Shown here: piece by piece, positions 25,834-28,468 of the stretch
Numbering within the stretch: the first letter of the stretch is position 1
Layout of the letters: the number at the start of each line of letters is the position of its first letter
Source: Phycisphaerae bacterium
GTDB taxonomy: Bacteria; Planctomycetota; Phycisphaerae; Sedimentisphaerales; Anaerobacaceae
Length of the DNA stretch: 64,000 bases
Direction of reading: 5' to 3'
Assembly (NCBI GenBank): GCA_012744475.1
Contig: JAAYBV010000039.1
Coordinates: 1-64,000, forward strand
Program-made: the position numbers and the translations under genes
The notes under the pieces: model-generated
What the model was told of the DNA's origin: nothing
The model's input: the letters and a program-made list of their open reading frames with translations, nothing else
Database searches by the model: none

Positions 25834-26233
25834 ATGTGTAAGCCGTGCGTACCGGTTCGCATCCTGATCGGCCAACGACCCGTTCAAGGCGATCATACGA
25901 TCAATGCGACCCGGCGTGTGGACATGGCCATCGGCATTTCCTATGAACATGATATGAAAAAGGCCAAGAAGGTCATCGATGGCGTCTCGGCCGCAGATCG
26001 GCGGATTCTGCCCGATCCGGCTCCCGTGGTGGAGGTCTCGGAGCTGGCCGAGCAGCGTGAACCGCGTGGTCCGGCCTCGGGGCACCTGCGCCGACTACTG
26101 GCCTGCCTATTTTGACTTGACCACCAATATTAGACTTGCACTCGGGGAAAATGGGCTTACAATACCATTCCCGCAGCGTGATGTGCATCTCAAGAACGGC
26201 AATTTGGTGGCCGCCGCAGGACGAAGAACGTGA
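25834..26233 (+). pseudogene. C-terminal relic of a small mechanosensitive channel gene (mscS), frameshifted
   Basis: Two adjacent frames join into the MscS C-terminal domain. Frame 1 (from ~25860) reads VQGDHTINATRRVDMAIGIS, then a KKAKKVIDGVSAADRRILPD segment, then DPAPVVEVSELA. At about 26050 it shifts to SSVNRVVRPRGTCADYWPAY, FDLTTNIRLALGENGLTIPF and PQRDVHLKNG. Known MscS proteins have the same order: NYSATGTRRVDL, DPAPTVAVSELADSSVNFVVRPW, then IPFPQRDVHL. The Asp codon between ELA and SSVN is missing two bases. The pore helices upstream are gone. The relic cannot make a channel; an intact MscS-like gene exists at 2685. Confidence 0.85.
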
Positions 26234-27425: not shown

Positions 27426-27454
27426 TTGACAGAATCGCGCCGGTATGCTATGCT
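27426..27454 (+). promoter_or_regulatory. consensus sigma-70 promoter of an unannotated small transcript
   Basis: TTGACA (27426-27431), exact 17-base spacer, TATGCT (27449-27454). The predicted start is at 27461-27463, directly on an ATG. Only about 200 bases downstream is a textbook terminator. Confidence 0.75.
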
Positions 27455-27462
27455 GAGCAGCA

Positions 27463-27624
27463 ATGAGCAGGAATTCTCGAAACAACAGGACCGAACAAGT
27501 GAAGAGTTCATCCAGAGCCGTCTTTGAGCCGATCCGGACGACAACGTCCGGAGCGGCCGCTGCGCCGGCTGTTCCGTGTTGGCGGCCGGATTGCACCTGT
27601 CTGCTCTACGGGTGGAACCTCTGA
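27463..27624 (+). CDS. possible leaderless 53-residue small protein
   Basis: The ATG at 27463 lies nine bases after the -10 box, at the predicted first base of the transcript, and stays open for 53 codons until TGA at 27622. The protein starts MSRNSRNNRTEQVKSSS and ends CWRPDCTCLLYGWNL, with three Cys and two Trp near its end. No Shine-Dalgarno site exists, which is expected of a leaderless mRNA. The same RNA also folds well, so it may be non-coding instead; I hold this call weakly. Confidence 0.3.
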   Translation: MSRNSRNNRTEQVKSSSRAVFEPIRTTTSGAAAAPAVPCWRPDCTCLLYGWNL

Positions 27625-27651
27625 CGGTCGGCGAATACTCTTGCAGGTACA

Positions 27652-27680
27652 AGCCGGCCTTCAACGCCGGCTTTTTTTTT
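27652..27680 (+). terminator. Rho-independent terminator with nine-T tail
   Basis: GCCGGC (27653-27658), loop CTTCAAC, GCCGGC (27666-27671), followed by nine T residues. A textbook intrinsic terminator, located about 28 bases after the possible 53-codon ORF. Confidence 0.9.
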
Positions 27681-27769
27681 GCCGGCACACATAAAGAGAA
27701 ACGATTTACGGAAATGACGGCGCCACAGGGACCGCCGGGACAATGTCTGCTGTTGGAAGGATAAGGATC

Positions 27770-28468
27770 ATGACTTCGAAAGAACTGCGAGAGATCCTGA
27801 CGCAAACGATTGACGACCGCCCCAGAGAGGGTCGACAGTACTTTCACGTGTGCTGGTGGAACGATGGGCTGTGCTGCCTGCCCACGATGCACACCACGGA
27901 GAAGCACGACATCTTCTTCATGGCGCCGGACACGGTTCTCGACGCCGGCCTGTCGGAACGCCAGATGGAGCTGATCGGCGAGCGCGTGACTGACTTTTGC
28001 AGCCGGCGGCGGATTCGATTGACCCAGATTCGTCGACGTCCCGTGCCGGCTTCCGGCCCTTCGGCACAGCAGGGGCTGCAGATCACGGACTTCGACCGTG
28101 CCCGCCTTCAGACCCTGCTGGGGCAACTGGACCGCCACGACGCTTCCCGGCGCAAAGAGGCCGCACGCCTTCAGATGCTTCTGAAGAAAGCCGATGTCGT
28201 CCCCTCCCGCGAGATCCCCCAGGATGTGGTCACGCTGAATTCAAAGGTCCGCGTCAAAGACGGTCGCAACAACCGATCCATGGTCCTCTCCCTCGCCTTC
28301 CCGACGGAGACCCCCTCGAAGGAAACCACCGACGAGGAGAACGTCTCGATTCTGAGCCGCGTAGGCCTGTCGCTCCTCGGACGGCGCGTGGGCGAGCAAA
28401 TTGACGGGCGTATGAAGGTGGACGAGCTGCTCTATCAACCCGAAGCGGCGGGCGATTACCACCTGTGA
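27770..28468 (+). CDS. Rnk/GreA-C-type RNA polymerase-binding protein with extra N-domain
   Basis: 232 residues. From about residue 100 the sequence matches Rnk and the GreA/GreB C-terminal domain: RARLQTLLGQLD, AARLQMLLKKADVVPSREIPQDVVTLNSKVRVKD, and the end SILSRVGLSLLGRRVGEQIDG. The first ~95 residues (GRQYFHVCWWNDGLCCLPTMHTTEKHDIFFMAPDTVL) are not a Gre coiled coil or the short Rnk head and I do not recognise them. GreA-type proteins bind RNA polymerase's secondary channel. Start 27770 has GGAAGGATAAGGA just upstream; ATG 27743 is less likely. Confidence 0.8.
   Translation: MTSKELREILTQTIDDRPREGRQYFHVCWWNDGLCCLPTMHTTEKHDIFFMAPDTVLDAGLSERQMELIGERVTDFCSRRRIRLTQIRRRPVPASGPSAQQGLQITDFDRARLQTLLGQLDRHDASRRKEAARLQMLLKKADVVPSREIPQDVVTLNSKVRVKDGRNNRSMVLSLAFPTETPSKETTDEENVSILSRVGLSLLGRRVGEQIDGRMKVDELLYQPEAAGDYHL

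Follow-up and report, generated by a model that had tools for sequence, protein, structure and literature searches.

Does the compact transcription unit that precedes an Rnk/GreA-like gene in this genome yield a product of its own, or is it the leader through which that gene is controlled? The unit lies in the window, the 64-kb stretch of DNA analysed here (coordinates refer to it, and the parts of the unit and the gene are on the plus strand), and a preliminary description had offered three readings: a new small RNA, a leaderless small protein, or an attenuated leader of the gene. The parts listed there were all borne out. The promoter, TTGACA-N17-TATGCT with an extended -10 (27426-27454), matches the consensus at 10 of 12 positions, with its -35 at 27426-27431, a 17-nt spacer and its -10 at 27449-27454, preceded by TG. 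The intrinsic terminator (27651-27680) is formed by a GC-rich hairpin, AAGCCGGCC-loop-GCCGGCTT, of 8 pairs with a loop of 7 (27651-27673), and by a run of nine T (27672-27680); it is the sole terminator with a strong hairpin and T-run within the window, and 27426-27680 is the sole unit there that combines a strict promoter (at least 10/12) with a terminator. A 53-codon ORF begins at an ATG ~9 nt past the -10, and the gene said to lie ~90 bases on is separated from the terminator by 89 nt. The stable stems also reported held up only in part, as the transcript does fold (-87.9 kcal/mol), though with a stability only modestly above that of shuffled sequences (z -1.87; equalled by 10 of 200). Searching the unit against Rfam gave no match at the gathering threshold, and the weak matches at E up to 5 were to unrelated families only.

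The presumed regulated gene (27770-28468, with a further in-frame ATG at 27743) encodes a protein with a GreA_GreB C-terminal domain (Pfam, E 4.4e-7) and a Rnk_N match that misses the Pfam cut-off (E 0.006). Close orthologs (63-65% identical in protein sequence) are found in exactly two of the five other genomes of the genus, G005 and G004, and these same two carry the unit. The locus order is shared by the three genomes, namely an MscS-like gene, a gene for a DUF481 protein, the unit, the Rnk/GreA-like gene and a transporter gene on the opposite strand. Conservation in near relatives, the test proposed in the preliminary description, is thus seen: from promoter to terminator the unit is ~70% identical in both congeners, in the same place and with a length of 254-255 nt in all three, while the spacers flanking it vary at the three loci, from 48 to 132 nt before it and from 89 to 478 nt after it. 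As the whole unit is conserved in two congeners, with alignment-score z values of 18-26, it is beyond chance. The conserved blocks are the -35 and -10 (the promoter reads TTGACG-N17-TATAGT in both congeners), CCGTCT..GCCGA within the ORF, a 15-base stretch over the stop codon (CTCTGACGGTCGGCG, 27619-27633, invariant in the alignment of the three) and the terminator, 27 of whose 30 positions are identical throughout. A pattern scan across collections of genomes and viral sequences returned one match, which was G004 itself (LVBB01000016, Phycisphaerales bacterium Planc_01); past the genus, direct DNA and small-peptide searches gave chance-level matches only, and a sequence-only model (R1) run on 89 genomes of the family recovered the three true copies and no others, its remaining matches being rejected as chance, for example when located inside coding sequence. 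Within the window, the MscS-like channel gene is a remnant whose fragments lie in different frames (25834-26233), while at the equivalent place in G004 and G005 it appears intact.

At all three loci, the unit's promoter is the sole promoter-like site on the strand of the Rnk/GreA-like gene from the DUF481 gene onwards, which makes it most likely that the terminator belongs to the leader of the Rnk/GreA-like gene. That the unit is a stand-alone sRNA acting in trans, placed here incidentally while the gene uses a promoter of its own that went unseen, is quite unlikely, although the transcription unit is complete, its conserved internal stretches could be seeds, and the spacer between it and the gene is long and variable, the terminator lying 485 nt from the gene in G005. 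The unit also diverges faster than the gene: between G005 and G004 (loci L031 and L107) the DNA of the gene is 93% identical and the adjoining leader 69%, a disparity hinting at gene exchange or at very different constraint. Against such an sRNA stand the missing second promoter, the lack of an Rfam match and the recurrence of the unit before homologs of the gene in other genera, each time with a stop codon set against an antiterminator (15 of 15, described below). An aborted transcript would indeed be a leader RNA of ~220 nt, and to this extent the small RNA first proposed is retained; nothing indicates a function in trans.

The ORF (27463-27624) ends in ...LLYGWNL at a TGA (27622-27624), with a GTG at 27499 as a possible in-frame alternative start. 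Its ATG sits close to the first base predicted to be transcribed, G005 has an ATG at the matching place, and the frame is open to the same stop in all three genomes, as would be expected of a leaderless mRNA for a functional, Cys/Trp-rich protein of 53 residues with its own terminator. Such an mRNA is nonetheless very improbable. G004 has a GTG in place of the 5' ATG, in a frame other than that of the ORF and closed by a stop, leaving only an internal start in frame with the ORF; an internal start with an AGG-like sequence ahead is present in all three genomes. The substitutions among the three are spread evenly over the codon positions (61/52/54), with no synonymous excess and hence no sign of purifying selection on the encoded peptide, and two closer pairs of leader ORFs offered too few changes for a codon test. 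Likeness between the peptides is confined to their last residues (YGWNL, YGRVL and YGRLL), where the nucleotides past the stop are conserved as well. Given the even substitutions and the out-of-frame GTG, selection is unlikely to act on a protein product, and the small-protein reading of the preliminary description finds no support; the ORF data would look like this if translation of the leader, and not its peptide, were what matters.

What such translation could control is suggested by the sequence that follows the stop codon. One nucleotide past it lies GGUCGGC (27626-27632), a putative antiterminator strand complementary over 7-8 bp to GCCGGCC in the 5' arm of the terminator (27653-27659); the arm is common to both hairpins and the two pairings are mutually exclusive. 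The two hairpins have similar predicted energies, which in the window are -16.5 kcal/mol for the local antiterminator hairpin and -13.5 for the terminator, and across the three genomes they range from -14.5 to -17.4 and from -13.5 to -13.9 kcal/mol, respectively. Compared to shuffled sequences, the complementarity yielded p 0.04 for the window alone and about 0.02-0.04 for the three genomes, or 0.07-0.18 with another scoring; GC-rich arms pair easily, and within the genus alone these values argue only weakly for an antiterminator. A protector strand for the untranslated state, equivalent to region 1 of the trp type, gave p 0.011, and so a strand enforcing termination without translation is only weakly indicated.

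A survey of homologous loci covered 79 regions upstream of homologous genes, 39 from this planctomycete order (the three loci of the genus among them) and 40 from the other orders of the class, and a unit was counted where a promoter with at least 10/12 matches was followed by a terminator 110-260 nt on. Fifteen of the 79 regions hold such a unit, 12 of them in other genera and families, and all lie within the order (families f1, f2, f5 and f7); none turned up in the controls, which comprised 395 Markov shuffles, 79 antisense strands and 78 other genomic stretches. The strict unit was absent from the other 64 regions, including all 40 of the other orders, and from the region upstream of a paralog in the window's own genome. 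Leaders measure 140-219 nt, and the distance from terminator to gene reaches 977 nt in G012. In all 15, the stop codon of an ORF of at least 10 codons falls 0-5 nt ahead of the antiterminator strand, compared to 1.6 expected, and the 45 nt ahead of the terminator are more complementary to its 5' arm than shuffled sequences are (Fisher p 1.8e-13), two leaders (G137 and G142) having weak antiterminators by the ungapped test. One further locus, G111, fits the layout by eye with a longer leader. Antiterminator and terminator strands also covary, with double-sided changes at two positions that preserve pairing, as in GCCGGC/GCCGGC (G023), GCTGAC/GTCAGC (G042) and GCTGGC/GCCAGC (G033); 96.7% of the cells are paired, and this falls to at most 48% when the strands are slid by one to three columns. 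Since the alignment is small and its register was chosen manually, and since the 15 loci share ancestry and are not phylogenetically independent, the covariation and enrichment figures support the switch and do not prove it.

Taken together, the unit probably (we put it at about 0.7) serves the Rnk/GreA-like gene as its 5' leader and as a transcription attenuator controlled by the ribosome, as argued by synteny, by the missing second promoter, by the conserved antiterminator and by the same architecture before homologs in other genera and families; among the readings in the preliminary description it is the attenuated leader that is well supported. RNA polymerase would start at the unit's promoter and make ~220 nt carrying the short ORF. 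With a stop codon in the A site, a ribosome shields some ten bases past that codon, which is where the antiterminator lies, and full translation of the leader should therefore favour termination: the ribosome at the stop would mask GGUCGGC, the terminator would form and only the leader RNA would be made. If the ribosome stalled early or the leader went untranslated, the antiterminator could form and polymerase would read through into the gene. We infer this direction of control from the geometry, and the most natural guess for the physiological signal is slow or uncoupled translation, since the gene is related to a factor of the RNA polymerase secondary channel. An attenuator whose antiterminator is governed by another factor, be it the GreA/Rnk-like protein itself, pausing factors, a ligand or an RNA-binding protein, with the ORF dispensable, would accord with the lack of a coding signature in the window ORF and with E. 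coli, where GreA feeds back on its GraL leader and no leader peptide is involved (PMC6829880). We consider it unlikely, as it leaves the placement of the stop codon in all 15 leaders and the recurrent Pro-stop ends of their ORFs (see below) unaccounted for.

The ribosome-controlled attenuator has counterparts of several kinds. In trp-type attenuators, the position of the stop codon lets a terminating ribosome cover the strand needed for the antiterminator, and the window leader likewise sets its stop codon against the antiterminator strand; unlike them, it has no run of one regulatory codon in its ORF and no biosynthetic operon behind it, and the evidence for a protector strand is weak. Attenuators commonly precede the greA/rnk-family genes of Proteobacteria, bacilli and Clostridia, in each case together with an antiterminator; these leaders have no common feature among themselves, and the short RNAs made from them may have a trans-acting role as well (Naville and Gautheret 2010, PMC2965389). 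The unit in the window resembles them in placing an intrinsic terminator ahead of a GreA/Rnk-family gene, within its 5' leader, and in having a mutually exclusive antiterminator, and differs in its short ORF ending at the antiterminator; a leader ORF goes unmentioned in that paper's section on the greA- and rnk-leaders, as do planctomycetes in the paper (PMC2965389). None of the Rfam matches of the window (E up to 5) or of 11 relatives (E up to 0.5) was to the published greA- or rnk-leaders, the sole matches in the relatives being to a group II intron and to a tRNA; the intron match (RF02005) lies at L124:594-820, near the G132 locus. In E. coli, GreA is autoregulated by way of GraL, which shares the order of promoter, short leader RNA, terminator and GreA-type gene, and whose leader controls read-through; GraL is 37-59 nt long, has no leader ORF described and is reported to have an effect in trans (PMC6829880), whereas the window leader is ~220 nt long and holds an ORF. 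Because the layout is alike, the ORF ends on the switch and no Rfam family matches, we take the unit as a new form of known attenuators: attenuators before greA/rnk-type genes occur in other phyla, and the leader-peptide type seen here in Planctomycetota looks new. If so, leader-peptide attenuation would join the ways in which GreA/Rnk-type RNA polymerase factors are regulated, the range of such attenuators would come to include Planctomycetota, and there would be a testable case in which a factor acting on the elongating polymerase is made or not according to how a short leader is translated.

Whether the peptides themselves take part is a more tentative matter. Among the 15 leader ORFs, seven have a Pro codon just before the stop (FIP, FYP, FYP, SIP, HIP, HIP and HVP), as has the longer G111 leader (SVP). 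The stalling leader peptide TnaC also ends in Pro-stop and works through Rho; the window peptide, unlike TnaC, ends in NL-stop. Leader ORFs could accordingly be nascent-chain sensors, with the conserved C-terminus and Pro-stop of the relatives pausing the terminating ribosome over the antiterminator, a doubtful but not negligible possibility. If true, the leader would directly sense the coupling of translation to transcription, and a polymerase accessory factor would be made only when leader translation falters.

Related short ORFs occur elsewhere in the group. Paralogs of the Rnk/GreA-like gene (L048 G004:C6, L049 G005:C2 and L050 G000:C117; also G001:C222) have a strong promoter ~880-890 nt upstream and no strong terminator in their upstream regions; after the promoter come a short ORF with an invariant IDWCFF-stop at its end and then a second small ORF, NC.YPCNP...KHPH.PRNED. 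Conservation of the first ORF at its C-terminus only suggests a leader peptide of the stalling type. At L031 (G005) and L107 (G004), a 38-codon ORF between terminator and gene ends in LDWYFF-stop or LDWSFF-stop, resembling the IDWCFF of the paralogs, and the 89-nt spacer of the window has no such ORF. In another genome, five Rnk/GreA-like genes stand in tandem behind a single leader (G013:C2:9412-12004).
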